Positions 3,001-29,717 of a stretch of DNA of 64,000 bases are shown here, one piece after another (within the stretch, counting starts at the first letter, position 1; every line of letters begins with the position of its first letter). The position numbers and the translations under genes were made by a program. This DNA comes from Mrakia gelida (Eukaryota; Basidiomycota; Tremellomycetes; Cystofilobasidiales; Mrakiaceae). Below the pieces are notes generated by a model that saw only the letters and a program-made list of their open reading frames with translations, was not told the origin of the DNA and did not search any database. The DNA lies in assembly GCA_024345305.1 (NCBI GenBank), contig BRON01000004.1, positions 1-64,000 of the forward strand, written 5' to 3'.

Positions 3001-4876
3001 GAGTCCCTCGACCATAGGGAAGGTCGAGCCTGAACTCGTCGAGAGGAGGAGGCCGATCGCGTCTTGGTTGTTGGCGAGGGAAGCGTAGTCGGAGGTGTCG
3101 AGAGAGGAAGAGAGTTTGAGGAGGTGGGTGGCATCTCGGGTGAGAGTCTTCCGCTGGGAGGAGGAGAGGGACGGAGTGTGGAGTGAAAGATGGTGTCCGA
3201 TGCGAGAGGGACGAACACCTCCTCCGTGGGAGTCCTCGTGGGTTGAGATGACAAGGCCGATGCGAGTGTTGACAGCGAGAGAGGCGATATTGAGAGCGGG
3301 AGTGGCTGAAAGGAGGAAGAGGAGAAAGGTCAGGGTCGGGAAGGAAGGGGGAGAGCAAGGAGGAGGGAGGAGAAGAAGAACGAACTGGCGAGATGAGGTA
3401 GCTTCCAGAACGCGTCTCGAACGAAAAATCCTCCGATGATGAGTCCCCTGAGGCTGTTGTTACCAGCCCTGTCGTCTCTAAGAACCGATGCTGTTGAGCC
3501 TGATGGAGGGAAGAAGGGTTTGAGGATCAGCACGAGTCCATACTCTCGAGCGAGAGAGCAAACAAGAGTGACCTAGAGAGACTCACCATCGTCCGAAGAG
3601 ACCTCGCCCTCGACTCCATCCATCCCACATGCAGCACCGACTCCTCCATCTTCCGAAAGGTTCCCATCCTCCCCACCAACACCCTCACTCTCAACAACCT
3701 CGCGTTCCTTCCCCTTCCTCGTCCCACTCGAGCTCGACCCACTCGCACTCCCTCCAACTCCCTCGCCACCACCTTGCTCGGTCTCTCCCTCTCCCTCCCC
3801 CTCGTCCATCCCAAAACCAAACCCTTCCCCATCCCCTAGGTGAGCGTTCTCCTCCTCCTCCTGTTGATCCTGTGTTGGCGGAGGGGGAGCGTCGGGTTGG
3901 GGAGAGGAAGATGGAGAGTGAACGAGAGGAGAAGGGAAGAGCGGGTGGAGAGGTTCGGTGAGGATGCAGATCTTCCAGTGCTTATGAAACGCGTTTGGGG
4001 TACGGGAAAAGTGAGGTTCCGAGTGAGGTCGAGGGCAGGAGAACGATCCGTTGGTTCCACGCGGCACTGAGAGGGATGGGGGAGGGAGAACGAGAGGAAG
4101 GGAGGAACGGGATGAGTGTTGGGCTTGAACGGAACCTACACGGAGAAGATGTGTGCAAGCGCACCTTTGAGACCTCCAGCAAGACGAATTTCAGCTTGAT
4201 GAACATCCTTCACATGCTCGGTGAGTTTAGCAAGGGTGGAGAAGGGTGAGAGGGCATGGCAGATCGCTCTTGAGCATGGGAAGCTCATCTGCTCGAGCAC
4301 GAACGAGAGAAGGTCAATCGAAAGTCAGAACAGAACCAAGTGGAGGGTGGGTGGTATGAGAAGATTGAGGTATGCGAGGGCAACTTACGGTACTGAAGAA
4401 AGAACCTGAGAGTGCAAGGGGAAGGAGGGAGAGCGAGCGAGGTAGAGGGAAGAACGATGGTCAGCTCGAGCTCGCAACTCCTCCTTCCTTCTCCTTCCTT
4501 CTGCAAAGGCAGGTGACACCTCATCCCACCTCCCCTACCTCCAACTGAAAGCGAAAGACTCACTTGAGTCCACGAGAAAGTCTCTCGAGAGCTCGTTCAG
4601 CGAGGGTTCCAAAGGGGAAGGAGGTTTGGCTGAGGTCGCTTTCGAAGGAAGCTGAAGAGGGTTGTAGAATTGGATCGGATCCGTTGGATGGCTAGGAGTA
4701 GAGGAGGAGTGGAGGAGAAGTTCCTGGTGGGAGAAAAGTGGAGGAAAGGGGTCAGCATCGAGCTCGCTCATGAAGGAGGGAAGGGAAGGAGGAGCGGAAG
4801 ACCGAGTCATAAGCGAGCGAGCGAGCGACGAGCTCCTCCCTTCTTCCTTCAAACGAGAGACCTTCCCAGCATGCAT
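1..4876 (-). CDS. Telomere-linked helicase copy 1 (3' part outside window)
   Basis: This is a multi-exon TLH-type gene read leftward and cut by the window edge before the helicase motifs. Visible in order are a first exon ending in a conserved SLNELSRDFLV segment (about 4876-4560), an acidic Gly/Glu-rich exon (4067-3590), a short exon (about 3530-3440), and a long C2H2-containing exon (about 3300-1756) with GCGSCGAVYKDGDSLRSHRHKRHG. Next comes the central domain (about 1710-470), which ends in the RGHSLKTDEAAYG motif. Several donors start GTGAGT. The frame stays open to base 1. It differs from copies 2 and 3 by many substitutions. It also has four rather than five G at about 4748, which shifts the frame of its first exon relative to the other two. 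The family is recognised from architecture (C2H2/OrsD-like region, recombinase-like motif, RecQ helicase as seen in copy 3). The start codon is not certain. Confidence 0.65.
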
Positions 4877-5368: not shown

Positions 5369-6054
5369 GGGTTGAGCTTGAACGAACGAGAGGGCAAGTT
5401 CCATCGACAGGTTCGCTGCCGCTTTGCAACGACTCTAGCAGTAACTCGAAATCTGAAAACAGATTAGTCCGGAGGCCGGGTATAGAGAACACGGTCCCCC
5501 TTCAAGCGAGCAACTTTTCTTACCACGAGGCTCAGACTCGCATAGGAGAAAGGAGGAGGAGCTGGGAGGTGAGCTTGAGCTCATACGTTTCAACCTCGAG
5601 ACGTCGGCTAATCTTTACTCTAGAGCTAAGCCCTCTTTACGGGACATACTAGAGCTATGCACCAGCGACTCCAGCCCTTTACAATCCGCTGTTTTGATCT
5701 TGAGTATACAAAGAAGCTGAAAGAGAGAGGATGGAGCTCCTCCGAAAAGAACTCGCGGAAGTCAGCTCGAGCTCACCCTCTCCTTCGTTTTGAGGTACCT
5801 CTCGGGAGAATCGCTGTCGACCATGCAGATTTTGTTCTAGAGAGCTGTGCTTCTGATACATTGTGCTTCATGGGTAGATCTCGCTGGTCGTGTTTCCCGT
5901 TTGCGATTCGGTGGAAGGAGGAAGGAGAACGAAGCGACGCAAAGTCCGGGTAGTCCAAAAAGGGCTGCTGGAACGGTCGGACTACCCGGATCCGGGTAGT
6001 CGACTACACGGAATCGACCGTTCCTGCTAGCAGGAACGGACGGCATACGGTTAG
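5369..6054. repeat. Terminal module A with palindrome cluster
   Basis: This is the right-hand terminus shared by all units. The last 110 bp hold four copies of a 12-nt module X in alternating orientation. They are TCCGGGTAGTCC at 5945-5956, its complement at 5979-5990, X again at 5991-6001, and an imperfect complement at 6002-6012 (one mismatch, A for C). A second module Y (GGAACGG core) lies at about 5968-5977. It recurs as a perfect 20-nt palindrome at 6019-6038. The terminus follows as GGCATACGG then TTAG (6051-6054). It lies upstream of the minus-strand TLH gene. Confidence 0.85.
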
Positions 6055-9000
6055 AATCCGTGTTTCCGTAAGCCGCCTCGTCCGTCTTGAGCGAGTGGCC
6101 TCGTTGGCTCGACTGAGTCTCCAGAGCGACAAGGAGTCCGTTGGCGTCTGATCCGAGGAGGGGTAGGATGATCCGACTGATGAAGACTTCGGCGTGCCGA
6201 ACCGTTTGGAGCCCAACTCCTGACGAGGAGCCTGACAAGACGAAGGCGAGCTTGAGGTGGGATCGGAGGTCGGCGGCGACGATCTGCTTCCCGACACCGT
6301 CTGTCCAAAGGAACGTCCTGAAGGTGGTCTGAACGGCGAGGTTGTTGTCCAGAGGGCTGAGAGAGTGGAGGAGGGAGAGAAGGTAGAGAGCGAAGGGTTG
6401 TACGACTCCGAAGAGCTGGATGACGAGAGGCACGAGGGTCGGAGACACGAAGCGATGGATGGTCTTCGTTCCTGTCTTGTTGACCTCCGTACGAATGGCG
6501 AGTCGGTTGGAGGTGATGAAGAGAGAGGAACCGTGGTCGACCGTTCGGGTGAGCTGCTGAGTAACGAGTTCCGAAGCTCGACCTCCAGGGGAGGAGAGGT
6601 GGATGGCGACGAGGACGTTGAGCTTCGCGGCGGCGAGGGAGTGAAGGAAGGCTCGGGCGTGAGGAAGGTTGAGCTGGGGTTTGAGAGGATCCGAGGGGTT
6701 TGAGATCCAGAGCTTGGAGTTGGAGAGAGAGAGGGAGAGGAGGAGAGCCTGTTGGTTCCGAGGTATCCCGAGCTTGATGCAGTTCGATGGATCCGTGAAG
6801 ATCGATCCCCCAACCTCTCCCGCAACTCCTCCGACCGTCGCTCCTTCCATCGTTCGGCCAACTGCTGAGAGGTCCGCCGAGAAGGTGAGGGTCTTGATCG
6901 AGGAAGTAGCTGATGCGATGGCTCCCTTGGCTGCGTCGGCAATAGCGGTGAGGGAGATGAAGCGGTTGTAGGAGAGGAGAGGGAGGAGGTGGCCTTCGAC
7001 TGGGTCGTGGAGGGGTTGGATGGAGACGACGGGTCCAGCAGCGGTGATGGCGTGGGAGATGGGATAGCGAGTAGCTCGAAGGACGACGAAGGGTGTGACT
7101 TGAGCTCCGTTGGGGTGAGCTGTGACGAGTTCGAAGAGCGGCGAGTCGAGACTGAGAAAGAAGAAAGAGAGAGGTGAGCGACGTGTTTCGAACCCCAAAG
7201 CGATCAAGACAACCGACTTACCCTCTCGACACTGGCACTGCTCCAGCCTCAGCTTCATCCAACTCCCTAACCTCTCCCCATCCAATCTCGTCCAGCACTA
7301 GGCGGTAGACAACGAGTCAAACGAAGAACTCGCAGGACGCGAGCTGAGGTCTGAACGATCCGATCTCCCGAAAGCCTCCTCCAGCAGCAAGGGAAAGGCA
7401 GATTAGGAACTGATCTAGGACCATCTGGCCCCGAGGAGGAGTGGATGAGTATCGAGGGGAGTAGATCGCAAGGAGGAACTGGAGGAGGGCGTCCTGAACC
7501 TCCTTTGACTCCTCGACTCCTCCTCTCCCTTCTCCTCCGACGACCCCGTTCGGCTGGGTGAGGACGTCCCTCTGGAGGACTTGACGGAGGGTGTTGGCTG
7601 CGAGTACCATCCGCTCGGTGGTGTGGAAGGAGGGAAGGTCGATGGAGGTGGTGAAGGAGCAGGAGGAGGGAGGAGGGGAGATGATTGGAGGAGGTGCGAG
7701 CTCGCCCTGAGGGATGGGGATGGGGTTTCGGTAGACCGTTGGCGTGACCCTGAGGGCAAAGAGGATGAGCGAGCTTGAATCCCTGCTGTATCGTTTGAGG
7801 GTCGAATCCGCGAGCCGCGGCTTGAAGATCCTTGTCGGTCCCTTCCCTCCTCGCTCTTCGTCGACCATGTCCTCCGAGATCTGCACCGACCCGTCCCCCA
7901 TCCCGATCTTCCTCGCCACAGCAAACTCGCTCGGATTCGTCCCGTACTTCCGAACCCCTAAGGCGAGATCCTGAACGTGGACCCAGACGTTTCGCAGAGG
8001 GTCGCGGTCCTCGATTCGAGTCTTGTCCGAGGACCGGTAGTTGTGGGCGGGGGAGATGGCTGAGCGGAGGACGGCGAGAGGGTAGGGTTGGATGAAGGAG
8101 CCGTAGCCGAGAGGGTTCTGGTAGACTGGTTGGTGGTAGAGGGAATTGTCGAGCTTGTCGCTGGGGGTGGGAAGGGAGGAGAGTATCTCGTTCTGCTGCT
8201 CGAGAAGGAAGGCTGCTGATGCTGAGGAGGGATCCGATCGTGGGACCTTGGGAGGGGGAGGAGGAACGAGGTTGATGGAGTTGTGAGACGGAGGAGGAAC
8301 GGCGAAGGCGGGGAGGTGAGCGTCGGGGAAGAGTTGTTGGGAGTGAACGGAAGCGGAGGAGAGATTCGTTCCTCCGTGCTTCTTGTGACGGTGGCTTCGG
8401 AGGGAGTCGCCATCCTTGCAGACCACACCACAGCTCCCCCAACCCTACTCCCATCCTCACGGCGATGCCCTCGACCATAGGGAAGGTCGAGGTGGACCGT
8501 CTCGAGAGGAGCAGCTGACTTGCAAGTTTCCGATCGGAGAGGGGAGCGTAGATGGAGTGCTTGAAGGAGTTCGCGAGGTTCAGGAGGAGGGTTGCTTCTC
8601 GGACGAGGGTTTTTCGATGGGAGGAGGAGAGGGAAGGGCAGAACTTGAGTAGGTGAGCGGTGAGTCCGGATGGTGCGACTCCTCCTCCGTACGGGTCCTC
8701 GTGGGTGGAAACGACGAGACCGATCCTCATGTTGATGGCTAGAGAAGCGGCGTGGAGGTTGGTCGTGGCTGAGAGAGAGAGAGAAAAAGAAAGGAAGATC
8801 AGGATCGGGAAGCAAGAGATTGGAGAGAAGGAGATGAAGGACGAACAAGCGAGGCTCTCTCCTTTCCAAAACGCGACAAGTCCTTCCACGTCGAGTTTCC
8901 TGAAGCATCCAATCCCAGCTTCGTCGTCTCTTGGCACCGATGCTGTTGAGCCTGATGGAAGGAAGAAGGGTTTAAAGATCAGCACAGGTCCATACTCTCG

Positions 9001-10412
9001 AGCGAGAGAGCAAACGAGAGTGACGGAACAGGACGCGAGAGACTCACCATCGTCCGAAGAGACCTCACCGACGACACCATCCATCCCACAAACCCCACCC
9101 TCCGCTTCGTCTTCCAGACAGTTCCTATCCTCCCCACCACTACCCTCCCTCCCATCAACAACCTCGTGTTCCTTCCCCTTCCTCGTCCCACTCAAGCTCG
9201 ACCCACTCGCACTCCCTCCAACTCCCTCGCCACCACCTCCCTCGGTCTCTCCCTCTCCCTCCCCCTCGTCCATCCCAGAACCAAACCCTTCCCCATCCCC
9301 TAGGTGAGCGAGTACCTCCTCCTCCTGCTGATCCTGTGTTGGTGGAAGGGGAGTGTTGGGTTGGGGAGAGAGAGAGGGAGGGTGAACAAGAGGAGAAGGG
9401 AAGAGCGGATGGAGAGGTTCGGTGACCGTACACGTCTTCCAGTGCTCGTGGAGAGCAGAGGGGGTTGGAGAGAGGTGAGATTGAGGATGAGGGCGAGGGC
9501 AGGGGAAGGATCCGTTGCTCCTTCGAGGAACTGAAAGGAGGGAGGTGGAAGAACGAGAGCGAGGGAGGAACGGGATGAGTGTTGAGCTAGCTTGAACGAA
9601 GCGAGCACGGTGAAGATGCATGCAAGCGGACCTTTGAGACCTCCAGAAAGACGAACTTCAGCTTGGTGAACATCCTTCACATGCTGAGTGAGTTTAGCGA
9701 GGGTGGAGAAGGGCGAGAGGCCGTGGCAGATAGCTCTCGGGCACGGGAAGCTCATCTGCTCAAGCACGAACAAGAGCAGGCCAATCGAGAGTCAGAACAG
9801 AACCAAATGGTGGATGGGTGGTATGGGAGGATTGGTGTATGCAAGAGGGACATACAGTATTGAAGGAAAAGCCTGAGAGTGCAAGGGGAAGGAGGGAGAG
9901 CGAGTGGGGTGAAGGGAAGGACGATGGTCAGCTCGGGCTCGCAACTCCTCCTTCCTTCTTCCTTCCCTCTCCCTCCCCTCCCCTTCCAAGGGCAGGCCCC
10001 ACCTTTTCCGACCTCTCCCAACCTCCAGCTCCATAGCAGAAAGCAAAAGACCCACTTGAATCCTACGAGAAGGTCTCTCGAGCGCTCGTTCAGCGAGGTG
10101 TCAAAGGGGAAGGAGGTTTGGCTGAGGTCGCTTTCGAAGGAAGCTCGAGAGGGTTGTGAGAGTGGATCGGGTCCGTTGGACGGATAGGAGTAGAGGAGGA
10201 GTGGGGGAGAAGTTCCTGGTAGGGAGAGAAGGGGAGGAAAGGGGGTCAGCATCGAGCTCGCTCATGAAGGAGGGAAGGGAAGGAGGAGGGGAAGACCGAG
10301 TCATGAGCGAGCGAGCGAGCTCCTCCTTCTCTCCTTCCAACACGAGACCTTCCCAGCATGCATCCACCTTCTCAGTGGGTTCTATTAACCCCAAATGATG
10401 CTCTCCCAACAT
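6055..10412 (-). pseudogene. Telomere-linked helicase copy 2, truncated and frameshifted
   Basis: Same exon order as copies 1 and 3, but the gene is cut shortly after the RGHSLKTDEAAYG motif. Translation runs straight into the palindromic end of unit 1, and the whole RecQ-like helicase domain is lost. There is also one extra base in the run at about 8434-8442 compared with 20937-20945 of copy 3. This shifts the frame inside the C2H2 finger, so copy 3 reads VGCGSCGVVCKDG while copy 2 reads VGLGELWC and loses the zinc ligands. Elsewhere it is almost identical to copy 3 from about 6790 to 10900, so the damage is young. It could still yield a truncated zinc-finger protein, but not a helicase. Confidence 0.75.
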
Positions 10413-10863
10413 AGAAGCTAGAGAAAAAGGACTTCCCTTCCTTTGCGAGAGGAGGAGGGGTTGAGGAAAGGGAAGCGATAAGGGAGCGATAAGGCGAGGG
10501 AGCTCACCAAGTCTGCCGTTCGAGCACTGCTCCAGTGGGTCCTTGGGAAGGAGGCTGGTCCCTCGTAGGATCTGACAAGTTGTTGGTAAGGGGAAGTGGA
10601 AATGGAAAGGAAGGTGTCAAGGGAAGAGGTCGATGTCGATGTGGTTGGGGGAGAGAGAGCAGGTCCGCGACTCCTCGTCGAAGACACGCGATTGACTCGG
10701 AGCTCGTCCCCTTCGGTCTACGGCTTCGTAGACCGATTTATGAAACCACCCTCCCATCACCCAGGTTGATCCTATAGTACCAAAGAGGCAGAAGGTCCAG
10801 GAAGAGTGCACTGCTGTTGTAGAAGGTAAGCGAGAGAGGAGGGAGAGAGGGGAGGAGGTCGAC

Positions 10864-11546
10864 GGTGAGCTTGAACGAACGAGAAGGCCCTTCCATCGAC
10901 AGGTTCGCTGCCGCTGCGCAACGACTCTAGCAGTAACTCGAAATCTGAAAACAGATTAGCCAGGAGGCCGGGTATAGAGAACACGTTCCCCCTTCAAGCG
11001 AGCAACTTTTCCTACCACGAGGCTCAGACTCGCATAGGAGAAAGGAGGAGGAGCTGGGAGGTGAGCTTGGGCTCATACGTTTCAACCTCGAGACGTCGGC
11101 AAATCTTCACTCTAGAGCTAAGCCCTCTTTACGGGACATAATAGAGCTACGTACGAACGACTCCAGCCCTTTACAATCCGCGGTTTCGGCCTTGAGTATA
11201 CAGAGAAGCTGAAAGAGAGAGGATGGAGCTCCTCCGAAAAGAACTCGCGGAAGTCAGCTCGAGCTCGCCCTCTCCTTCGTTTTGAGGTACCTCTCGGGAG
11301 AATAGCTGTCGGCGATGCAGATCTCACGATATAGAGCTGTGCTTCTGATACATTGTGCTTCATAGGTAGATCTCGCTGGTCGTTTTTCCCGTTTGCGATT
11401 CGGTGGGGAGGGGAGGGAAAAACGAAGCAGCGCAGGTTGCGTACCCTCCGGAAAGCCTGTTGGAACGGTCGGAGGGTACGCATGCGTACCCTCGAGGGTA
11501 CGCAGGGGCCCGTTCCAACGCGTTGGAACGGGTCGCATACCGTTAG
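10864..11546. repeat. Terminal module B with palindrome cluster
   Basis: Same layout as module A with a different stem sequence. X is GCGTACCCTCC at 11439-11449, its complement is at 11471-11481, and X plus complement form a perfect 20-nt palindrome at 11484-11503. The adjoining complement and X also make a perfect 22-nt palindrome at 11472-11493. The Y hairpin is a perfect 24-nt palindrome at 11509-11532, with arms CCCGTTCCAACG and CGTTGGAACGGG. TTAG is at 11543-11546. Confidence 0.88.
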
Positions 11547-11959
11547 GGACATACTAGAGCTATGTACCAACGACTTCAGCCCTTTACGACCCGCGGTTTT
11601 GATCTTGAGTATACAGAGGAGCTGAAAGAGAGAGGATGGAGCTCCTCCGAAAAGAACTCGCGGAAGTCAGCTCGAGCTCGCCCTCTCCTTCGTTTTGAGG
11701 TACCTCTCGGGAGAATCGCTGTCGGCGATGCAGATTCTATCATAAAGAGCTGTGCATCTGATACATTGGGCTTCATGGGTAGATCCTGCTGGTCGTCTTT
11801 CCCGTTTGCGATTTGGTGGAAAGGGGAGGGAGGAACGAAGCCGCGCAGGTTGCGGACCCTCCGGAAAGGCGCCAGGAACGGTCGGAGGGTCCGCATGCGG
11901 ACCCTCGAGGGTCCGCAGAGGCCCGTTCCTGCCTCCAGGAACGGGGCGCATACGGTTAG
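11547..11959. repeat. Terminal module C, left-truncated solo copy
   Basis: This piece starts at GGACATACTAGAGC, which is internal in modules A, B and E, so only the right part of the module is present. X is GCGGACCCTCC (11852-11862), with complement at 11884-11894. Perfect palindromes lie at 11885-11906 and 11897-11916. Relative to module B a single T-to-G change in X appears in both X copies, with the matching A-to-C change in both complements. The Y hairpin is at 11922-11945 (10-nt arms, 4-nt loop), with CAGGAACGGG replacing the TTGGAACGG type of module B. TTAG is at 11956-11959. Confidence 0.85.
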
Positions 11960-12321
11960 GAACTCGGCCTTGAATATACAGTGCAGCTAAAGAGAGGCTG
12001 GAGCTCCTCCGAAAAGAACTCGCGGAAGTCAGCTCGAGCTCACCCTCTCCTTCGTTTTGAGGTACCTCTCGGGAGAATCGCTGTCGACCATGCAGATTTT
12101 GTTCTAGAGAGCTGTGCTTCTGATACATTGTGCTTCATGGGTAGATCTCGCTGGTCGTGTTTCCCGTTTGCGATTCGGTGGAAGGAGGAAGGAGAACGAA
12201 GCGACGCAAAGTCCGGGTAGTCCAAAAAGGGCTGCTGGAACGGTCGGACTACCCGGATCCGGGTAGTCGACTACACGGAAACGACCGTTCCTGGAGGCAG
12301 GAACGGGTCGCATACCGTTAG
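11960..12321. repeat. Terminal module D, left-truncated solo copy
   Basis: This begins at GAACTCGGCCTTGAATATAC, internal to the full modules, directly after the TTAG of copy C. X is TCCGGGTAGTCC (12212-12223), with complement 12246-12257, X again 12258-12268 and an imperfect complement 12269-12279. That is the same stem type as module A, including its one mismatch. The Y hairpin is 12286-12305 with a GAGG loop. TTAG is 12318-12321. Confidence 0.85.
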
Positions 12322-12419
12322 AGAAAATTTGAGTGAGTCGAACTGGCACAAGAGGGGAGAGGACGCAACATGAACAAGGGATCACGAAACGACTTCTTCC
12401 ATCTCGTATAGATCACCTC

Positions 12420-12832
12420 GAGTGATTCATAGTTGAAACCGAATTTGAATTCCCTTTTCATCGCGTATGCCCGCGAGTATATAGGTGCGCCCGTTCATGT
12501 TCTAGTAGCCGTTGAAGAGCGCGTCCACCATCTCGCACCCACTTACGAACACTTTTAACTTCGGACCCAGAGCAGCTGGAGCGGCACCGAATAAATTGGG
12601 AGAACCATCAAGACTACTAGAGATGATCCGAATTGGTTTCGATCAGCTCAGAGAAGATTTGAGCAAGTCGAACTTGGCTGGAAGAAGGGAGGACGCGACT
12701 GGAAGGAGAAGTCCCGAATTGATCGCTTCCATCTGATGTAGATCACCTCGGGTCATAGATGGATCAAACAGGCTTTTGATTCCCTTTTGATCGCGTATGC
12801 CCGCGAGTATATAGGTGCGCCCGTTCATGTTC
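12420..12832 (+). repeat. Diverged direct repeats with TATATAGGTGCGCCCG core
   Basis: A segment of about 200 bp ending CGAGTATATAGGTGCGCCCG followed by TTCATGTTCTAGTAGCC occurs at about 12320-12510. It recurs, diverged, at about 12645-12840, and again in unit G at about 14420-14615. The core is nearly invariant while the flanks have drifted. It lies just beyond the 3' end of the small minus-strand gene and may hold its 3' end signals. TATATA could instead be a plus-strand promoter. No function is demonstrated. Confidence 0.55.
12502..12600 (-). pseudogene. C-terminal remnant of the small unit gene
   Basis: The minus strand reads a VSGCEMVDALFNGY ending and a stop at 12502-12504. This matches the C-terminus of the genes at 12832-13615 and 14600-15384. 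Upstream the similarity decays within about 60 bp, so it is a broken third copy of the last exon. Confidence 0.5.
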
Positions 12833-13615
12833 TAGTAGCCGTCATAGAGCGCGTCCACCATCTCACACCCACTCGCGAGCACTCCCAACTCCTCAACGAA
12901 AGCAGCTAGAGCGACACTGAACATACCCAGAGAGTCAGCGAAGCGATACGAGGTCATAGGTAGGTCATCTAGCAGTGCCACGGAAGAACTGACGAACGTC
13001 GAAGGGAGGCAAGGTCGAGATGGAGGGAAGGGGAGGAGCGGTGAGCTCAACGAGAGCTCACTCGACGAGCGAGAGAGACCTTCCAACACTCCTAAGGCAT
13101 CCCTCTACTTCCCGGACCATGGCCCCACTTCATATAACCCCGATTTATCCACCAGAATCGAGGAAAAGGAGCGAGAACTCGCCTCGACAGACTCGACACA
13201 GGAAAGGAAGGAGAAGGGTCGAGCTGCCAGCGCATGGAGTGGGGAGGTCGAGGGAGGGAGAGGTGGAGCAAGAGGGGTAGTGGGAGTGTTTCGCGATGGA
13301 AGAGGAGGTATACTAGAGTGGTAGGAAAGAGAGAATGAGAAGATAGAGTGAGTACGAGAGTCTCAGCAGCATCGGATGCATGGGAGGAAGGAGAGTCAAG
13401 CTCAACAAGACTGCATGAGCGAGGAGCCTCAACCGTATACATCCCTCGAAATCTGAGACCTTCCACCTAGGCACCCTAGCTGCCCTACTATACCCCCGAA
13501 GTCCCATTGCGATCCGAGCAAGAGGTGAGGAGAACGGAAGGAGAGAAGATGGAGGGAAGGAAGGGGAGGAGGTGGAGGTGGAGCTCACATTGATCGAGCT
13601 CATTTCCTCTTGCAT
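12832..13615 (-). CDS. Small intron-containing gene of unknown function, copy 1
   Basis: I do not recognise this gene. A plausible first exon starts ATG at 13615 (MQEEMSSIN) and runs into a GTGAGCTCC donor. Internal coding includes MGLRGYSRAARVPRWKVSDF (about 13520-13440). The last two exons read RDALGVLEGLSRSS and then SSVALLDDLPMTSYRFADSL, ending GCEMVDALYDGY with a stop at 12832-12834. The last exon is conserved in frame between two full copies and one remnant, which supports coding. It lies downstream of the shared terminal module exactly where units 1, 2 and F have the TLH gene. Exon borders in the middle are uncertain. Confidence 0.45.
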
Positions 13616-13736
13616 CCAACCCTAGCGAAAGATAAAAAGTGGATAGGGTTACTCCTATACTACCATAGACTCATAATGGAGAAGGAGGAGTAAGGGGGAA
13701 GCGCATGTATAGAGCGAGGGGCAAGGGAAGATGGGG

Positions 13737-14419
13737 GTTGAGCTTGAACGAACGAGAGGGCCCTTCCATCGACAGGTTCGCTGCCGCTGCGCAACGGTTC
13801 TAGCAGTAAATTGAAATCTGAAAACAGATTAGTCAGGAGGCCGGGTATAGAGAACACGTTCCCTCTTCGAGCGAGCAAATTTTCTTACCACGAGGCTCAG
13901 ACTCGCATAGGAGAAAGGAGGAGGAGCTCAGAGGTGAGCTTGAGCTCATACCTTTCAACCTCGAGACGTCGGCAAATCTTCACTCTAGAGCTAAGCCCTC
14001 TTTACGGGACATACTAGAGCTACGTACGAACGACTCCAGCCCTTTACAATCCGCGGTTTCGGCCTTGAATATACAGTGCAGCTAAAAGAGAGAGGATGGA
14101 GCTCCTCCGAAAAGAACTCGCGGAAGTCAGCTCGAGCTCGCCCTCTTCATCGTTTTGAGGTACCTCTCGGGAGAATATCTGTCGACGATGCAGCTTTTCT
14201 CGTATACAGCTGTGCATCTGATACATTGTACTTCATAGGTAGATCTAGCTGGTCGTTTTTCCCGCTCGCAATTCGGTGGGGAGGGGAGGGAGAACGAAGC
14301 GACGCAAAGTCCGTCAAGTCCGTCAAGTCCTGTTGGAACGGTCGGACTTGACGGATCCGTCAAGTCGACTTGACGGAAAGGACCGTTCCAACGCGTTGGA
14401 ACGGCTCGCATAGGATTAG
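13737..14419. repeat. Terminal module E with palindrome cluster
   Basis: Full module with stem type TCCGTCAAGTCC. X is at 14310-14321, followed by an extra direct copy to 14330. The complement is at 14344-14355, X again at 14356-14366 and a perfect complement at 14367-14377. Two overlapping perfect 22-nt palindromes result (14345-14366 and 14356-14377). The Y hairpin 14383-14404 is a perfect 22-nt palindrome with arms CCGTTCCAACG and CGTTGGAACGG. TTAG is 14416-14419. A leader ORF (minus, 13878-13660) is conserved in all modules: VFSIPGLLTNLFSDF then RSGSEPVDGR. Confidence 0.88.
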
Positions 14420-14599
14420 AGAAAATTTGAGTGAGTCGAACTGGCACAAGAGGGGAGAGGACGCAACATGAACAAGGGATCACGAAACGACTTCTTCCAT
14501 CTCGTATAGATCACCTCGAGTGATTCATAGTTGAAACCGAATTTGAATTCCCTTTTCATCGCGTATGCCCGCGAGTATATAGGTGCGCCCGTTCATGTT

Positions 14600-15384
14600 C
14601 TAGTAGCCGTTGAAGAGCGCGTCCACCATCTCGCACCCACTCGCAAGCACTCCCAACTCCTCAAAGAAAGCAGCTAGAGCGACACTGAACATACCCAGAG
14701 AGTCAGCGAAGCAATACGAGATCATCGGTAGGTCAAATAGCAATGCCACGGAAGAACTGACGAACGTCGAAGGGAGGCAAGGTCGAGATGCAGGGAAGGG
14801 GAGGAGCGGTGAGCTCAACGAGAGCTCACTCGACGAGCGAGAGAGACCTTCCAACACTCCTAAGGCATCCCTCTACTTCCCGGACCATGGCCCCACTTCA
14901 TATAACCCCGATTTATCCACCAGAATCGAGGAAAAGGAGCGAGAACTCGCCTCGACAGACTCGACACAGGAAAGGAAGGAGAAGGGTTGAGCTGCCAGCG
15001 CACGGAGTGGGGAGGTCGAGGGAGGGAGAGGTGGAGCAAGAGGGGTAGTGGGAGTGTTTCGCGATGGAAGAGGAGGTATACTAGAGTGGTAGGAAAGAAA
15101 GAACGAGAGGATAGAGTTGGTACGAGAGTCAGGACTGCATGGGGAAGCATGGGAGGAAGGAGAGTCAAGCTCAACATGACTCCATGAGCGACGAGCCTCA
15201 ACCGTATACATCCCTCGAAATCTGAGACCTTCCACCTAGGCACCCTAGCTGCCCTACTATACCCCCGAAGTCCCATTGCGATCCGAGCAAGAGGTGAGGA
15301 GAACGGAAGGAGAGAAGATGGAGGGAAGGAAGGGGAGGAGGTGGAGGTGGAGCTCACATTGATCGAGCTCATTTTCTCCTGCAT
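14600..15384 (-). CDS. Small intron-containing gene of unknown function, copy 2
   Basis: Near-duplicate of the gene at 12832-13615, with start MQEKMSSIN at 15384 and stop at 14600-14602. The final exon reads LLFDLPMISYCFADSLG and ends GCEMVDALFNGY. A small deletion or replacement around 15100-15190 distinguishes the two copies in a middle region that is probably intronic. Substitutions in the last exon keep the frame. Function is unknown and exon borders are tentative. Confidence 0.45.
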
Positions 15385-15505
15385 CCAGCCCTGGCGAAAG
15401 ATAAAAAGTGGATAGGGTTGGTCCTATACTACCATAGACTCATAATGGAGAAGGAGGGGCAAGGGGGAAGCGCATGTATAGAGCGAGAGGCAAGGGAAGA
15501 TGGGG

Positions 15506-15807
15506 GTTGAGCTTGAACGAACGAGAGGGCCCTTCCATCGACAGGTTCGCTGCCGCTGCGCAACAATTCTAGCAGTAAATCGAAATCTGAAAACATATTA
15601 GTCAGGAGGCCGGATATAAAGAACACGCTCCCCCTTCGAGCGAGCAACTTTTCCTACCACGAGGCTCAGACTCGCATAGGAGAAAGGAGGAGGAGCTGGG
15701 AGGTGAGCTTGGGCTCATACGTTTCAACCTCGAGACGTCGGCAAATCTTCACTCTAGAGCTAAGCCCTCTTTAGGGGACATACTAGAGCTATGTACCAAC
15801 GACTCCA
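15506..15807. repeat. Terminal module G, truncated before the palindromes
   Basis: This matches the first 300 bp of the module, including the VF(S/F)I(P/S)GLLTN leader ORF (minus, 15647-15429). It stops at the shared GACTCCA and has no palindromes. Confidence 0.75.
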
Positions 15808-15903
15808 ACTTCAGACAAGAGACATCAAATAGAACCGGAGAAGAAACGAAAGCGGAGCGCAACAAGATTCAAAACCAGTACAGAAAGAGGAGGACACGAG
15901 TTA

Positions 15904-18900
15904 CTACGTAGGGCGAGAGACAGTCTTGTAGAACCAGAGGAGGAGAAGAGCAGCGTTGGTGAAAGGAAGTGTAGGGGAGAGCAAACCTAGCCAGAACGAG
16001 AACTCCACGTCCTTCTCCTTCGTGATCTTCCACTTGTAATATTCCCTCGTCCCCAGCAGTATCCCTTCTCCGTCAGACACCCACCGCCAGTCTGATCCAA
16101 TCCTCCCCTCCTCGATAGCCCTCTCCCTCCAACTCCGATCCCGGAACAGCTGCATGCAAAGAGGAACAACCATCTTCGCAGCTCTGAACGGACACCCTCC
16201 TCCCATCCCACCCTCTGCCGCCTCGTCGTGCAGCGAGATAGGGAAGAGGCATCCGAAACAGCAGTTGGAGTAGGTAGAGCGTTGGGCGGTAAGGACTGCG
16301 CATGTCTCGAGACTCCTCCAGTTGCAGCCAGTACAGTACGAGCACCTGCGAGAGAAGAGAAGAAAGCGACGTCAGAACGCGTCGCGGTCAAGAAGGAGAG
16401 GCAAACAGGATCGAAAACGTACTCTTTCTTCTTGCTGGGGCATCCGTACTTGTGGAGTGAGGTGGCGTTGGGAGAGAGTTGAGTGGTTGGGTGAAGGAGG
16501 ATGCACGACGAGCAGAGGGAGTCGAGGGTTCGGAGGAGATGGGCAAGTTCGTTGAGGAGGATGTTTGCTTGAGTATGGAGCTGACGTGATTGGAGGTAGG
16601 CTTCGGGGATCTCGGAGGAGTGAGGGATGGTAGGGAAGAGAGAGCTGATGAGGGGAGGAGAGATGGCTGAGGGGAGGAGGTTGGTGGTTCGGTGGGAGGG
16701 GAGGGAGGGAGATTGAGGAGGGGCAACGCGACGACGACGACATTCCGTACAGAGTCCACAGTCTCCCGACGAGAAATCGTTGAGCTGCTCCTCCAGTGCT
16801 TTGGCAATGCAGCTGTTTGGAGAGCGGAAGCGAGGGTCGAACCCGTTTGGGTGGTCGACGAAAAGCGTCGACTTCTTCCGTTGGAGGTCCCAGACGACGG
16901 TCTCCCAGTCTCGACCTCGACCTCCTCCCTGAACGCGCTCGGAAACTGTCCATCCTTTTGGGTGAGGAAGGAAGATGACGAGGTTGCATTGCTGGAAGAG
17001 GAAGGAAGAGAGTTCGGTTGTTGTTCTCGTCCTGACCCGACGCGACGCAAGGGGGGTTGTGTTTGACTCACCGGACAGTCCAGAGCTTGAATCCCCGCTG
17101 TTGTGCAGAACAGGTAGTTGATCCTTCCGGCTTCCCAATCCCTGCTCGTTCCATCCATCTTCCTTGTCTCCTCCACACCCGTCACCGCGTAGTAGACCTC
17201 CGTCCTCACCTCGACACCCTTCCTCTCTGCCTCCTCCACCAGCCTTCCTCGTAGCGCGTCCAGCTCCTTCTTGGTGAATCCAAAGATGATGACTGGAGCT
17301 CTAGGAGCAGAGAGGTGACCGTTCCCGAAAGTATCCATCATCGTCTTGAAGACGTCGTCGCTGGAGTCCAGCTTCACAACGTGGAACGTGACTCCAGGAC
17401 GACGAAGAGGAAAGTTGAGCTCGGTGAGGGTTGAGTGAAGGAGTGTTCCGGCGTGTCTCCGTGCTCCCTCAGTCCAGCTGCCGGAGAGAAGGAGGAAGGG
17501 AGCTCGCGCGAGTCGAGCGAGGGAGACGTAGCCCATCGACGGCCTCCAATCCGACTGAGTCGCCCAGGTGTGAGCCTCATCCCCGACGAACTGGAGGACC
17601 TTCCCTATGGTGCCGAGGGAAGCGAGGTCCTCTCGAAGCTGCTTGTTGCCTAGCTGCTCGATCGAGATGAGGAGGACACCTCGGAGGCTGACGAGAGGGG
17701 TTTCGGGAGGGAAGGGGTGGGTGTGGACGTCGAGACTGCTGTTCCGACATCGAGCGTGAAGCGTAGCGAGGATGGAGCGGAAGGGTGTTATGAAGACGAC
17801 GAGACGACCAGTAGGGTGACTGCGGTCAAGGAGAGCTCGAAGGAGGGAGAGGAAGGTCTTGCCCGACCCAACGGGGCTGCTGAGAAGGTAATCGGTTCCT
17901 CCGCGGATGATCTTGGCAGCAGCTTCGAGCTGGTTCTCGTAGAGCTCCGCGTCGTCGAAGTCGACACCGTCCGTGAGAGCTTGGAGATCGAGAGGAGTCC
18001 GGCTTCTTGAGGATACTTCCACCGCACTTGGTGGAAGAATCGAAATCCTCTCCTCCTCCTCCGAGACTGGATCTCCTCCTCCTCCTGCCGCGTCGTCGCG
18101 ACTTGGCTCCATCGGCTCGGATCCTTCGTCGTCGTACCCTGAGACTGGAGGAGGGGAGGGTGGTACTGGTGTGGGACGTTTGAAGAGAGGTTGGGAGGAA
18201 GAGAGAGAAGAGGAGGAGGGACGCTTGGAGGAGAGCTGAAGAGAAGGAGAGAAAGAGAGACGCGTCAGTCAGGCGAGGGACGTCGACAGAAGAGAGAAGG
18301 GAGGAAAGACTCACCGACGGATGAGAGCTACGCCCAAGAAACAGATCCAGCCTGTCGGGCAAGCGATCGATCTTGAGAACCTGCGTAGCGGAGGGGGAAG
18401 AGGAGGGTTGGTCAGAACGAGGGGTCGAGTGAAGATCGAGAACGAGCCTGGAGGCGAAGACTCACAGGATCCACTCCCAACGCGAGTTGATACAGGCTCA
18501 CAACCCTCATCGCATTCGTTGCATCTCCAAAAGCAGCCAAGTCCCGAATCCCACCACTCGAATCCGTGTTTCCGTAAGCCGCCTCGTCCGTCTTGAGCGA
18601 GTGGCCTCGTTGGCTCGACTGAGTCTCCAGAGCGACAAGGAGTCCGTTAGCGTCGGATCCGAGGAGAGGAAGGATGATCCGACTGATGAAGACTTCGGTG
18701 TGCCGAACCGTTTGGAGCCCAACTCCTGACGAGGAGCCTGACAGGACGAAGGCGAGCTGGAGGTGGGATCTGAGGTCGGCAGCGACGATCTGCTTCCCGA
18801 AACGGTCTGTCCAAAGGAACGTCCTAAAGCTGGTCTGCAGGTCGAGGTTGTTGTCTAGAGGGCTGAGAGAGTGGAGGAGGGAGAGAAGGTAGAGAGCGAA

Positions 18901-21900
18901 GGGTTGTACGACTCCGAAGAGCTGGATGACGAGAGGCACGAGGGTCGGAGACACAAAGCGATGGATGGTCTTCCTTCCGACCTTGTTCACCTCGGTGCGA
19001 ATGGCGAGTCGGTTGGAGGTGATGAAGAGAGAGGAACCGTGGTCGACCGTTCGGGTGAGCTGCTGAGTAACGAGTTCCGAAGCTCGACCTCCAGGGGAGG
19101 AGAGGTGCATGGCGACGAGGAGGTTGAGCTTTGCGGCGGCGAGGGAGTGAAGGAAGGCTCGGGCGTGAGGAAGGTTGAGCTGGGGTTTGAGAGGATCCGA
19201 GGGGTTTGAGATCCAGAGCTTGGAGTTGGAGAGAGAAAGGGAGAGGAGGAGAGCCTGTTGGTTCCGAGGTATCCCGAGCTTGATGCAGTTCGATGGATCC
19301 GTGAAGATCGATCCCCCAACCTCTCCCGCAACTCCTCCGACCGTCGCTCCTTCCATCGTTCGGCCAACTGCTGAGAGGTCCGCCGAGAAGGTGAGGGTCT
19401 TGATCGAGGAAGTAGCTGATGCGATGGCTCCCTTGGCTGCGTCGGCAATAGCGGTGAGGGAGATGAAGCGGTTGTAGGAGAGGAGAGGGAGGAGGTGGCC
19501 TTCGACTGGGTCGTGGAGGGGTTGGATGGAGACGACGGGTCCAGCAGCGGTGATGGCGTGGGAGATGGGATAGCGAGTAGCTCGAAGGACGACGAAGGGT
19601 GTGACTTGAGCTCCGTTGGGGTGAGCTGTGACGAGTTCGAAGAGCGGCGAGTCGAGACTGAGAAAGAAGAAAGAGAGAGGTGAGCGACGTGTTTCGAACC
19701 CCAAAGCGATCAAGACAACCGACTTACCCTCTCGACACTGGCACTGCTCCAGCCTCAGCTTCATCCAACTCCCTAACCTCTCCCCATCCAATCTCGTCCA
19801 GCACTAGGCGGTAGACAACGAGTCGAACGAAGAACTCGCAGGACGCGAGCTGAGGTCTGAACGATCCGATCTCCCGAAAGCCTCCTCCAGCAGCAAGGGA
19901 AAGGCAGATTAGGAACTGATCTAGGACCATCTGGCCCCGAGGAGGAGTGGATGAGTATCGAGGGGAGTAGATCGCAAGGAGGAACTGGAGGAGGGCGTCC
20001 TGAACCTCCTTTGACTCCTCGACTCCTCCTCTCCCTTCTCCTCCGACGACCCCGTTCGGCTGGGTGAGGACGTCCCTCTGGAGGACTTGACGGAGGGTGT
20101 TGGCTGCGAGTACCATCCGCTCGGTGGTGTGGAAGGAGGGAAGGTCGATGGAGGTGGTGAAGGAGCAGGAGGAGGGAGGAGGGGAGATGATTGGAGGAGG
20201 TGCGAGCTCGCCCTGAGGGATGGGGATGGGGTTTCGGTAGACCGTTGGCGTGACCCTGAGGGCAAAGAGGATGAGCGAGCTTGAATCCCTGCTGTATCGT
20301 TTGAGGGTCGAATCCGCGAGCCGCGGCTTGAAGATCCTTGTCGGTCCCTTCCCTCCTCGCTCTTCGTCGACCATGTCCTCCGAGATCTGCACCGACCCGT
20401 CCCCCATCCCGATCTTCCTCGCCACAGCAAACTCGCTCGGATTCGTCCCGTACTTCCGAACCCCTAAGGCGAGATCCTGAACGTGGACCCAGACGTTTCG
20501 CAGAGGGTCGCGGTCCTCGATTCGAGTCTTGTCCGAGGACCGGTAGTTGTGGGCGGGGGAGATGGCTGAGCGGAGGACGGCGAGAGGGTAGGGTTGGATG
20601 AAGGAGCCGTAGCCGAGAGGGTTCTGGTAGACTGGTTGGTGGTAGAGGGAATTGTCGAGCTTGTCGCTGGGGGTGGGAAGGGAGGAGAGTATCTCGTTCT
20701 GCTGCTCGAGAAGGAAGGCTGCTGATGCTGAGGAGGGATCCGATCGTGGGACCTTGGGAGGGGGAGGAGGAACGAGGTTGATGGAGTTGTGAGACGGAGG
20801 AGGAACGGCGAAGGCGGGGAGGTGAGCGTCGGGGAAGAGTTGTTGGGAGTGAACGGAAGCGGAGGAGAGATTCGTTCCTCCGTGCTTCTTGTGACGGTGG
20901 CTTCGGAGGGAGTCGCCATCCTTGCAGACCACACCACAGCTCCCACACCCTACTCCCATCCTCACGGCGATGCCCTCGACCATAGGGAAGGTCGAGGTGG
21001 ACCGTCTCGAGAGGAGCAGCTGACTTGCAAGTTTCCGATCGGAGAGGGGAGCGTAGATGGAGTGCTTGAAGGAGTTCGCGAGGTTCAGGAGGAGGGTTGC
21101 TTCTCGGACGAGGGTTTTTCGATGGGAGGAGGAGAGGGAAGGGCAGAACTTGAGTAGGTGAGCGGTGAGTCCGGATGGTGCGACTCCTCCTCCGTACGGG
21201 TCCTCGTGGGTGGAAACGACGAGACCGATCCTCATGTTGATGGCTAGAGAAGCGGCGTGGAGGTTGGTCGTGGCTGAGAGAGAGAGAGAAAAAGAAAGGA
21301 AGATCAGGATCGGGAAGCAAGAGATTGGAGAGAAGGAGATGAAGGACGAACAAGCGAGGCTCTCTCCTTTCCAAAACGCGACAAGTCCTTCCACGTCGAG
21401 TTTCCTGAAGCATCCAATCCCAGCTTCGTCGTCTCTTGGCACCGATGCTGTTGAGCCTGATGGAAGGAAGAAGGGTTTAAAGATCAGCACAGGTCCATAC
21501 TCTCGAGCGAGAGAGCAAACGAGAGTGACGGAACAGGACGCGAGAGACTCACCATCGTCCGAAGAGACCTCACCGACGACACCATCCATCCCACAAACCC
21601 CACCCTCCGCTTCGTCTTCCAGACAGTTCCTATCCTCCCCACCACTACCCTCCCTCCCATCAACAACCTCGTGTTCCTTCCCCTTCCTCGTCCCACTCAA
21701 GCTCGACCCACTCGCACTCCCTCCAACTCCCTCGCCACCACCTCCCTCGGTCTCTCCCTCTCCCTCCCCCTCGTCCATCCCAGAACCAAACCCTTCCCCA
21801 TCCCCTAGGTGAGCGAGTACCTCCTCCTCCTGCTGATCCTGTGTTGGTGGAAGGGGAGTGTTGGGTTGGGGAGAGAGAGAGGGAGGGTGAACAAGAGGAG

Positions 21901-22917
21901 AAGGGAAGAGCGGATGGAGAGGTTCGGTGACCGTACACGTCTTCCAGTGCTCGTGGAGAGCAGAGGGGGTTGGAGAGAGGTGAGATTGAGGATGAGGGCG
22001 AGGGCAGGGGAAGGATCCGTTGCTCCTTCGAGGAACTGAAAGGAGGGAGGTGGAAGAACGAGAGCGAGGGAGGAACGGGATGAGTGTTGAGCTAGCTTGA
22101 ACGAAGCGAGCACGGTGAAGATGCATGCAAGCGGACCTTTGAGACCTCCAGAAAGACGAACTTCAGCTTGGTGAACATCCTTCACATGCTGAGTGAGTTT
22201 AGCGAGGGTGGAGAAGGGCGAGAGGCCGTGGCAGATAGCTCTCGGGCACGGGAAGCTCATCTGCTCAAGCACGAACAAGAGCAGGCCAATCGAGAGTCAG
22301 AACAGAACCAAATGGTGGATGGGTGGTATGGGAGGATTGGTGTATGCAAGAGGGACATACAGTATTGAAGGAAAAGCCTGAGAGTGCAAGGGGAAGGAGG
22401 GAGAGCGAGTGGGGTGAAGGGAAGGACGATGGTCAGCTCGGGCTCGCAACTCCTCCTTCCTTCTTCCTTCCCTCTCCCTCCCCTCCCCTTCCAAGGGCAG
22501 GCCCCACCTTTTCCGACCTCTCCCAACCTCCAGCTCCATAGCAGAAAGCAAAAGACCCACTTGAATCCTACGAGAAGGTCTCTCGAGCGCTCGTTCAGCG
22601 AGGTGTCAAAGGGGAAGGAGGTTTGGCTGAGGTCGCTTTCGAAGGAAGCTCGAGAGGGTTGTGAGAGTGGATCGGGTCCGTTGGACGGATAGGAGTAGAG
22701 GAGGAGTGGGGGAGAAGTTCCTGGTAGGGAGAGAAGGGGAGGAAAGGGGGTCAGCATCGAGCTCGCTCATGAAGGAGGGAAGGGAAGGAGGAGGGGAAGA
22801 CCGAGTCATGAGCGAGCGAGCGAGCTCCTCCTTCTCTCCTTCCAACACGAGACCTTCCCAGCATGCATCCACCTTCTCAGTGGGTTCTATTAACCCCAAA
22901 TGATGCTCTCCCAACAT
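15904..22917 (-). CDS. Telomere-linked RecQ-type helicase, copy 3 (complete)
   Basis: A large gene of about ten exons, roughly 2,000 residues. The order from the 5' end is as follows. A C2H2 finger CPRAICHGLSPF... with H-x4-H (about 22260-22170). A Cys/His segment CPRPHPQSHL and an acidic stretch (22070-21560). A second zinc finger GCGSCGVVCKDGDSLRSHRH (about 20950-20880). A central domain (19680-18470) ending RGHSLKTDEAAYG, where His to Tyr is nine residues as in tyrosine recombinases. Then an SF2 helicase: PVGSGKT, DEAH, SGSWT, a motif V-like CTTAGIQALD, and QGGGRGRD (RecQ motif VI; about 17930-16900). A Cys-rich tail follows, with stop at 15904-15906. Helicase activity, DNA binding and a role at chromosome ends are inferred from the TLH family. 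The start codon is uncertain. Confidence 0.75.
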
Positions 22918-23374
22918 AGAAGCTAGAGAAAAAGGACTTCCCTTCCTTTGCGAGAGGAGGAGGGGTTGAGGAAAGGGAAGCGATAAGGGAGCGATAAGGC
23001 GAGGGAGCTCACCAAGTCTGCCGTTCGAGCACTGCTCCAGTGGGTCCTTGGGAAGGAGGCTGGTCCCTCGTAGGATCTGACAAGTTGTTGGTAAGGGGAA
23101 GTGGAAATGGAAAGGAAGGTGTCAAGGGAAGAGGTCGATGTCGATGTGGTTGGGGGAGAGAGAGCAGCTCCGCGACTTCTCGTCGAAGACACGGGATGGA
23201 CTCGGAGCTCGTCCCCCTGGGTCCACGGCTTTGTAGATCCACCGATTTATGAAACCACCCTCCCATCGCCCAGGTCGATTCTAGAGTACCAAAGAGGCAG
23301 GAGGTCCAGGAAGAGTCCAGCTGCTGTTGTAGGAGGTAAGCGAGGGAGGAAGGAGAGAGGGGAGGAGGTTGATG

Positions 23375-24056
23375 CTGAGCTTGAACGAACGAGAAGGTCC
23401 TTCCATCGACAGGTTTGCTGCCACTGCGCCAGCGTTCTCGCAGTGAATCGGAATCTGAGAAAAGCCTAGTCAGGAAACTAGGTATAGAGAGCACGCTCCC
23501 CATTCGAGCGAGCAAATTCTCCCGCCACGACGCTCAGGCCTGCATCGGAGGGAGGGGAAGGAGCTCAGAGGTGAGCTCGAGCTCATAACTTTTAACCTCG
23601 AGTCGAGAGCACGTTCTCACTCTAGAGCTAAGCCCTCTTTACGGGACATACTAGAGCTATGTACCAACGACTCCAGCTCTTTACAATCCGCGGTTTCGGC
23701 CTTGAGTATACAGAGAAGCTGAAAGAGAGAGGATGGAGCTCCTCCGAAAAGAACTCGCGGAAGTCAGCTCGAGCTCGCCCTCTTCATCGTTTTGAGGTAC
23801 CTCTCGGGAGAATATCTGTCGACGATGCAGCTTTTCTCGTATACAGCTGTGCATCTGATACATTGTACTTCATAGGTAGATCTAGCTGGTCGTTTTTCCC
23901 GCTCGCAATTCGGTGGGGAGGGGAGGGAGAACGAAGCGACGCAAAGTCCGTCAAGTCCGTCAAGTCCTGTTGGAACGGTCGGACTTGACGGATCCGTCAA
24001 GTCGACTTGACGGAAAGGACCGTTCCAACGCGTTGGAACGGCTCGCATAGGATTAG
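23375..24056. repeat. Terminal module F with palindrome cluster
   Basis: Stem type TCCGTCAAGTCC, the same as module E and identical over the palindromes. Perfect 22-nt palindromes lie at 23982-24003 and 23993-24014, the Y palindrome at 24020-24041 and TTAG at 24053-24056. Its 5' half is more diverged from the other modules than the 3' half. For example, the leader ORF reads VLSIPSFLTRLFSDS (23515-23009). Confidence 0.85.
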
Positions 24057-28505: not shown

Positions 28506-28579
28506 GACCAATGTGGGGATCGAACCCAAGACCTTGGCGTTATTAGCACCACGCTCTAAACCAACTGAGCTAATCGGTC
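28506..28579 (-). tRNA. tRNA-Ile(AAT)
   Basis: Full cloverleaf on the minus strand. Acceptor GACCGAT pairs with ATTGGTC, the anticodon stem is TGGTG/CGCCA around loop CTAATAA, and the T-loop is GTTCGATC. No intron. Confidence 0.9.
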
Positions 28580-29677: not shown

Positions 29678-29717
29678 AGTCCTTTTTGCTCGGCGTAAGA
29701 GCGGTGGGTGGACGGAA

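Follow-up and report, generated by a model that had tools for sequence, protein, structure and literature searches.

Palindromic clusters in Mrakia gelida form the fixed end, turned to the centromere, of a subtelomeric helicase element that may be added to eroded chromosome ends

Subtelomeric genes for RecQ-like helicases, full and truncated, occur at many chromosome ends in Agaricus bisporus var. burnettii, Zymoseptoria and Fusarium, and Ustilago and Magnaporthe are also named for telomere-linked helicases (PMC7473861, PMC4522978, PMC12857005). Such helicases have long been known in fungi, and there is no clear account of why they lie at telomeres or how they spread. Elements that attach to chromosome ends are known as well. 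The Drosophila elements HeT-A, TART and TAHRE form same-direction arrays whose fixed end faces the centromere, and they are added to the 3' end of the chromosome. HeT-A does not encode a reverse transcriptase, and in these elements the strand that runs to the centromere is G-poor (PMC5537684). MoTeR and FoTeR are fungal chromosome-end elements, many of them truncated, and FoTeRs adjoin telomere-linked helicases (PMC12857005, PMC7367193). Endonuclease-lacking Penelope-like elements (Athena) and Terminons join uncapped chromosome ends and are 5' truncated (PMC5537684). Here we consider the first 64,000 nucleotides (nt) of contig BRON01000004.1 of the basidiomycete Mrakia gelida, the left end of contig C4 (the window). 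It holds several copies of an element with a putative RecQ-like helicase gene, each copy ending in a cluster of palindromes and TTAG. The cluster is the internal, centromere-facing, fixed end of a subtelomeric element. We argue that the element joins eroded or broken chromosome ends by this fixed end, and that the palindrome arms are kept alike by template switching. We put the probability of this combined reading at roughly 0.55; within it, end addition is well supported.

The location of the element and its gene match the pattern of the fungal telomere-linked helicases. It lies beside telomeres in several full and truncated copies, three of them long in the window, and its clusters are found near 35 contig ends. 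Unlike the helicases described so far, as far as the accessible descriptions go, it has a fixed structured end, a rule that G precedes the junction and covarying palindromes, and it is proposed here to be end-attaching, as those genes are not in their descriptions. In the accessible parts of the open-access literature, which leaves subscription papers mostly uncovered, no fungal telomere-linked helicase is described with covarying palindromes, a fixed end or a target rule of one base. The element resembles HeT-A, TART and TAHRE in forming same-direction arrays with the fixed end toward the centromere (77 of 78 ends; one decayed copy outside this set is reversed). Drosophila telomere retrotransposons are truncated on the telomere side. 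Unlike those elements the Mrakia element has no poly(A), and its fixed end is a covarying three-hairpin cluster plus TTAG. It carries a helicase, and neither a gag nor a reverse transcriptase could be recognised there. It sits beside telomerase-type repeats, requires G at position -1 of its target and is G-free in its outer tract only. MoTeR and FoTeR, as described, encode a reverse transcriptase and sit in telomere repeats, whereas here none was recognised and 67 of 70 distinct flanks are non-telomeric. Athena and the Terminons, again as described, differ in encoding a reverse transcriptase and in having telomere repeats at the attaching end. Coprina is another endonuclease-lacking Penelope-like element. 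End-attaching elements and telomere-linked helicases are each already known.

The original prediction, made from the letters of the window, had described six clusters on one plan: X, Y, X', X, X', Y', Y, about 15 nt, TTAG. The plan is present in all six, and the TTAG ends do lie at 6054, 11546, 11959, 12321, 14419 and 24056. Between the last Y and TTAG there are 11 nt, or 15 nt with TTAG counted. The clusters and the conserved stretch that leads to them are as follows.

5938 to 6054, plus strand: cluster A, a three-hairpin attachment end, with X = TCCGGGTAG in three arms and TCCGTGTAG in one
11431 to 11546, plus strand: cluster B, with X = TGCGTACCC in four arms; terminates copy B (6055-11546)
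11844 to 11959, plus strand: cluster C, with X = TGCGGACCC in four arms; terminates copy C (11547-11959), cut down to 413 bp
12205 to 12321, plus strand: cluster D, with X = TCCGGGTAG in three arms and TCCGTGTAG in one; terminates copy D (11960-12321), cut down to 362 bp
14303 to 14419, plus strand: cluster E, with X = TCCGTCAAG in four arms; terminates copy E (12322-14419), with the same target flank as D
23940 to 24056, plus strand: cluster F, with X = TCCGTCAAG in four arms; terminates the window's longest copy, F (14420-24056)
14089 to 14388, plus strand: conserved stretch reaching the cluster, in six in-register copies at 5724, 11216, 11629, 11991, 14089 and 23726

The X versions had been read correctly, including the single mismatch of A and D, which falls in the fourth arm, and the one base that separates B from C in all four arms. 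So had the Y pairs of B, C, E and F. In A and D, whose Y pairs had not been listed, the first Y (CTGGAACGG) faces CCGTTCCTG with one T/T mismatch. Cluster A is joined to copy B partway through its helicase region.

The whole M. gelida assembly (34.86 Mb, 25 contigs) was searched. Clusters were gathered by two pattern searches and a DNA search, and then by a script on the fetched stretches. This gave 78 element ends. Of these, 74 are full clusters; the other 4 are stubs of 13-42 bp and are omitted from cluster counts. The set includes a divergent relative at C24:15672 and all 68 places that one of the pattern searches found with 0-1 mismatch, plus 10 more; further places with 2 mismatches are left out of it. 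It also includes C13:1348003, a cluster minus one palindrome and without the CGCATA-TTAG end. There are 47 distinct clusters, or 46 haplotypes after C24:15672 is dropped, and the 46-row alignment used below omits that relative. Some copies are worn. C17:6280, C1:18591 and C13:1348003 have each lost one X'X palindrome, and C1:18591 is also a decayed copy. Those at C7:10364 and C7:136 kb are decayed and end in TTAC; beyond one of these two ends stands another short stub with TTAG. C24:15672 has hairpins I and III of the plan and ends in GGTTGG on degenerate telomere repeats.

The position of these ends is the first argument. All 36 ends in the left halves of contigs are on the plus strand, and 41 of the 42 in the right halves are on the minus strand. 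Within 36 kb of a contig end lie 76 of the 78. The element is nearly always oriented the same way at chromosome ends, and the rule is valid for intact ends with few old exceptions. Of the two ends that lie further in, C15:1069024 is 197 kb from an end. There a truncated copy stands head-on to a seven-unit TTAGGG relic near 1,074,440, and this junction is the relic of an old chromosome end-to-end fusion. The other, C23:131293, lies between Copia-type sequences (recognised by eye) on a small contig. At eight contig ends the outer end of the element can be seen, and it is joined by TTAGGG-type telomere repeats. The outer tract at all eight is 156-541 bp long with 0-0.4% G (0 or 1 G on the centromere-running strand), against 23-25% G in the 500 bp beginning 100 bp inward of it. 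The outer tracts of C3 left and C5 right are alike and may be duplicates. Hairpin-end resolution had been among the mechanisms first proposed. A hairpin-capped chromosome end is ruled out, since the cluster faces the centromere and the eight outer ends carry TTAGGG repeats. The original prediction was right in part, and it had missed both the location at chromosome ends and the helicase.

The gene of the element is read from minus-strand helicase frames to the left of the clusters, three long copies of which are in the window.

16388 to 18112, minus strand: putative RecQ-like helicase open frame of copy F, with a DEAD domain (PF00270, 1.7e-6, above the Pfam cut-off); reads toward the telomere
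18412 to 19791, minus strand: middle frame of that gene region, also in copy F, with no Pfam match at E <= 0.01
19724 to 22126, minus strand: upstream frame of copy F; it matches C2H2 (E 0.0029) and OrsD (E 0.0078) weakly, in both cases below cut-off
7267 to 9621, minus strand: the same upstream frame in copy B, its DNA 99% identical to copy F over 300 bp
1756 to 3015, minus strand: the corresponding frame in copy A, with 67% identity over the same 300 bp

These frames are interrupted and were read without exon joining. The helicase frame of copy F contains GSGKT and DEAHTWATQSDWRPSMGY, which we take to be RecQ-type motifs. Its best RecQ match in a structure library is weak (E 0.14), HamB helicase reaches E 0.0046, and no NCBIfam model matches it near its cut-off. 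The recognised motifs and the weak structure match suggest that the helicase is RecQ-like. Two protein searches found no relatives at E <= 0.001 in a collection whose fungal coverage is uncertain. A telomerase domain is present on C8, and no link between it and the element was seen.

The junctions are the second argument. TTAG ends 76 of the 78, in part as a consequence of the search pattern. Beyond it there are 70 distinct flanks, 67 non-telomeric and 3 telomere-like (one of these is the C24 relative). An uninterrupted paralogue was found among the fetched pieces for 38 of the 78 junctions. These represent 33 distinct targets when keyed by 14 nt of flank, with one target that is used at two positions one base apart (C10:1576990, C11:26285) counted twice. 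The base at -1 is G in 32 of the 33 (p = 3e-18 with a G frequency of 0.256) and in 32 of 32 non-telomeric targets; the sole miss is a telomere junction mispaired with vector sequence. The final G of TTAG is therefore common to element and target. The base inward of -1 is mixed (A 16, T 10, C 6, G 1), and the first base past the junction is G in 20, A in 10 and C in 3. The distal part of the target is absent at the left and right ends of C7, which are telomere-capped: the remainders of 2.5 kb and 1.5 kb gave 0 matches, and a control matched both. This missing remainder and the prevailing orientation rule out a simple internal insertion that keeps both sides of its target. The junctions therefore point to addition to an end, or to a break that lost the distal piece.

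One can imagine that repair alone spread the element: break-induced replication or end joining would copy subtelomeric elements already present to broken ends, and transposition would play no part. In the blast fungus, repair of this kind has been described for telomeric arrays (PMC7367193). Some copies here did move within larger duplications, since a flank beginning GAGGACACG is common to four of them, and C3:2329710 and C10:6900 have one flank in common. However, homologous copying alone would not put one exact end on 70 distinct flanks, and it meets the same difficulty with the G before the junction in every non-telomeric target tested. We consider spread by DNA repair unlikely. A Helitron or another rolling-circle element with a 3' hairpin and a short terminal tetranucleotide is a second candidate, as the hairpin 11 nt ahead of a fixed 4-nt end resembles a Helitron 3' end. 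Helitrons have a 3' hairpin and a CTRR end, insert between A and T, and encode a Rep-helicase. The end here is TTAG and not CTRR, and the junction has G, not A, before it, with T following in just 1 of 70 flanks. The scanned frames hold no Rep-helicase match, and the genome has two 31-bit Helitron_like_N fragments, both on C21. The end, the target and the absence of a Rep-helicase match in the scanned frames rule out Helitron identity, and a rolling-circle origin of any kind is extremely improbable.

We argue instead for the following route of end addition. The terminal 3' strand of an eroded chromosome, where it finishes in C, would pair with the terminal G of TTAG. This single C-G pair would prime the copying of the element from its TTAG end outward, which would yield the junction features seen, and the three-hairpin cluster would mark where copying begins. 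Drosophila telomere elements also use the chromosome end as primer (PMC5537684). The template would more likely be RNA than DNA, and the polymerase would act in trans. The outer tract, up to ~540 bp long and almost C-free on the 3' strand, would then be capped by telomerase. Later erosion would shorten the copy from the telomere side, the next copy would join there, and repeated rounds would leave same-direction arrays of truncated copies. The copies of 362 and 413 bp in the window and the stubs of 13-42 bp elsewhere support such erosion. While copying the palindromes the polymerase would jump template between arms, and selection would maintain the fold.

The last step rests on the arms, which were claimed from the start to change in concert. 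They do so in the genome-wide collection and covariation test (46 haplotypes), on a scale larger than first described. The 9-nt X core has seven versions in these haplotypes: TCCGTCAAG, TCCGTGGAG, TCCGGGTAG, TCCGTATCC, TGCGTATCC, TGCGTACCC and TGCGGACCC. An explanation by two or three founder sequences, which had been raised at the outset, therefore fails. The copy at C3:2269703 retains the palindrome GGGCACGGATCCGTGCCC, which would be a further X version. All four X arms are identical in 31 of the 46 haplotypes. The 15 with unequal arms are 12 of the GGTAG version, a hybrid with TATCC in arms 1-2 and TACCC in arms 3-4, one whose arm 3 has a point change and one with a palindrome lost. In the GGTAG version, which makes up 12 of 46 haplotypes and 22 of 73 copies, the fourth arm is without exception of another version, either TCCGTGGAG (6) or TCCGTGTAG (6). 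Perfect pairing, as first described, does not extend to all clusters.

In the three-hairpin structure 98.3% of 1360 cells are paired, against 78.0% in shuffled sets (standard deviation 0.8; 0 of 500 reach the observed value). Sliding the partner by 1-3 columns drops the figure to 27-46%. Independent mutation is as inadequate an explanation as had been claimed. Changes are two-sided in 261 cells and one-sided in 3, and 23 further cells are unpaired, of which 18 are in the GGTAG version. A MAFFT gap misplaced in 2 of 46 rows (C2:11510, C23:184872) accounts for two unpaired cells and for two of the three that are one-sided, and the single G-U cell of hairpin II is scored as two-sided. It must be noted that the number of pairs with two-sided change (16 vs 15.0) and the number of further pair types (25 vs 29.8) are not above shuffles, because there are few letters per column. 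The alternative arm pairing (X1:X'2 and X'1:X2) scores 97.2%, so the data give no choice between the two folds. Between the first Y and Y' one outer pair covaries in 46 of 46; the next pair is mismatched in 21 of 46 and the last in 8 of 46. The RNA folds have z-scores of -6.0 (F), -7.1 (B) and -5.4 (A), each minimum-energy fold has three hairpins, and the DNA fold of F has a z-score of -5.6. A known RNA family or ribozyme is ruled out: the cluster region (window 23700-24080) has 0 Rfam matches at E <= 1, and the only Rfam matches of the window are tRNAs.

Selection of the fold and copying between arms had both been offered to explain this. We argue that copying fits better than selection for pairing alone, and that selection for the fold probably acts as well. 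If selection were alone responsible, an RNA or single-strand DNA fold would be needed by the element and each change would then be compensated. The three hairpins in all three copies folded and the high pairing suit this, as does the prediction of hairpins I and III, not II, in the distant relative C24:15672, whose upstream DNA is ~55% different. Yet pairing of X1 with X'1 and X2 with X'2 would not force both hairpins to match, and they are equal in 31 of 46 haplotypes. Selection on both folds could equalise them, given the fit of the alternative pairing. One-sided states are also very rare (3 vs 261 cells), which favours copying. So does a fifth X copy, which is identical to X1 in 11 of 46 haplotypes and differs from it by one base in 6. 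When F is folded, the version-specific part of this copy falls within the hairpin I loop, although slipped-register pairing is also possible. We regard selection alone as a doubtful account.

Partly converted arm sets are found (arms 1-3 vs 4; arms 1-2 vs 3-4), and these could also arise by recombination between versions. The inner loop of the terminal hairpin is GAGG in 21 of 74 copies and its reverse complement CCTC in 4 of 74. The converted sets and the inverted loop together fit copying between arms better, and this suggests that the arms were copied from one another. Template switching has been proposed for stem rewriting and loop inversion in RNA hairpin genes, where Monttinen and Loytynoja (2022) have one switch rewrite a stem from its partner and so account for compensating changes and loop inversions (PMC8794818). 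Their switches were inferred in rRNA and microRNA genes, as described there; here a single element family has four to five arms per cluster and seven versions. The X versions, the loops and the last 15 nt combine in several ways among copies, so exchange between copies must have taken place over <120 bp. Copies that share the same 250 bp upstream but sit on different flanks form 47 pairs, which are not independent of one another; between their members the cluster differs at 6/4778 positions and the last 15 nt at 33/715. These 15 nt read NN CGCATA NNN TTAG; CGCATA and TTAG are mostly constant, and the two and three surrounding bases vary. Some groups have a constant end (5 of 5 copies on five flanks), so the end is not re-made randomly each time. 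By eye only, no relation was seen between the last 15 nt and the target flank.

The arms could also be four binding sites of one protein that change together with its specificity. A 9-12 nt word in four equal copies would suit such sites, the element has a weakly zinc-finger-like frame, and the protein could act in trans. But B and F, 99% identical over 300 bp of the helicase region, have different X, and the X versions are only partly linked to upstream sequence. The mean upstream distance is 0.04-0.14 within versions and 0.10-0.17 between them, and the smallest single distance between versions is 0.027. Binding sites therefore seem quite improbable to us. The stretch common to B and F also speaks against X as a mark of helicase lineage.

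Several observations weigh against our account of end addition and template switching. All counts rest on one genome. A decayed copy at C7 136 kb lies away from the ends, and C6:992875 shares a 22-mer with it (a 22-mer match alone). The decayed copy at C3:2269703, outside the set of 78, is 72 kb from the right end and runs in the opposite direction. Two separate junctions, found in four copies, sit directly on CCCTAA repeats; this speaks for addition at chromosome ends, and it violates the G rule. Two targets hold different elements at the same base (C4:12321/14419 and C5:2052371/C16:1238774), and this agrees more with site preference or replacement than with erosion at random. Neither a reverse transcriptase nor any other polymerase could be recognised in the element frames, and there is no RVT_1 match within the element. 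Of the 20 RVT_1 matches in the genome, 16 lie in frames of 1246-1493 aa and another is weak; going by the domains of the window copy, we take the 16 long frames for Gypsy. Hairpin II of the GGTAG version has one or two mismatches in 22 of 22 copies, so either imperfect pairing is enough or the arms are not fully homogenised. The centroid fold of A departs from the three-hairpin fold. Finally, the last 15 nt are ~37 times more variable than the rest of the cluster in otherwise identical copies.

A bolder proposal is that this is a new class of chromosome-end element, with a helicase instead of a reverse transcriptase, a one-base-pair start, a four-arm palindromic cluster as start signal whose arms are rewritten from each other at copying, and a means of sensing telomere loss. 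We offer it tentatively and would not bet on it. As the 3' strand of the outer tract is nearly C-free, a freshly capped end would lack a base for priming, and it would mostly be eroded ends that take the next copy. The C-poor tract would then act as a built-in sensor of telomere loss, with the two telomere-repeat junctions as exceptions. A fixed end, a one-base rule and a telomere-seeding outer tract would make telomere-linked helicases end-attaching elements. The cluster is a natural record, with intermediates, of palindrome arms changing jointly, and a test case for template switching as the origin of compensating changes.

Some neighbouring features were also seen. The left end of C1 (1-1024) has vector-like, non-fungal sequence (by eye) ahead of the telomere repeats, which is probably a leftover of telomere cloning. 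In the window, five closely spaced tRNA genes (RF00005) lie at 28505-31088 with matched lengths of 75-158 nt. A long terminal repeat retrotransposon frame of 1260 aa at 35066-38848 has reverse transcriptase, RNase H, integrase and chromodomain, and within it there is a 45-bp tandem repeat (37051-37312).

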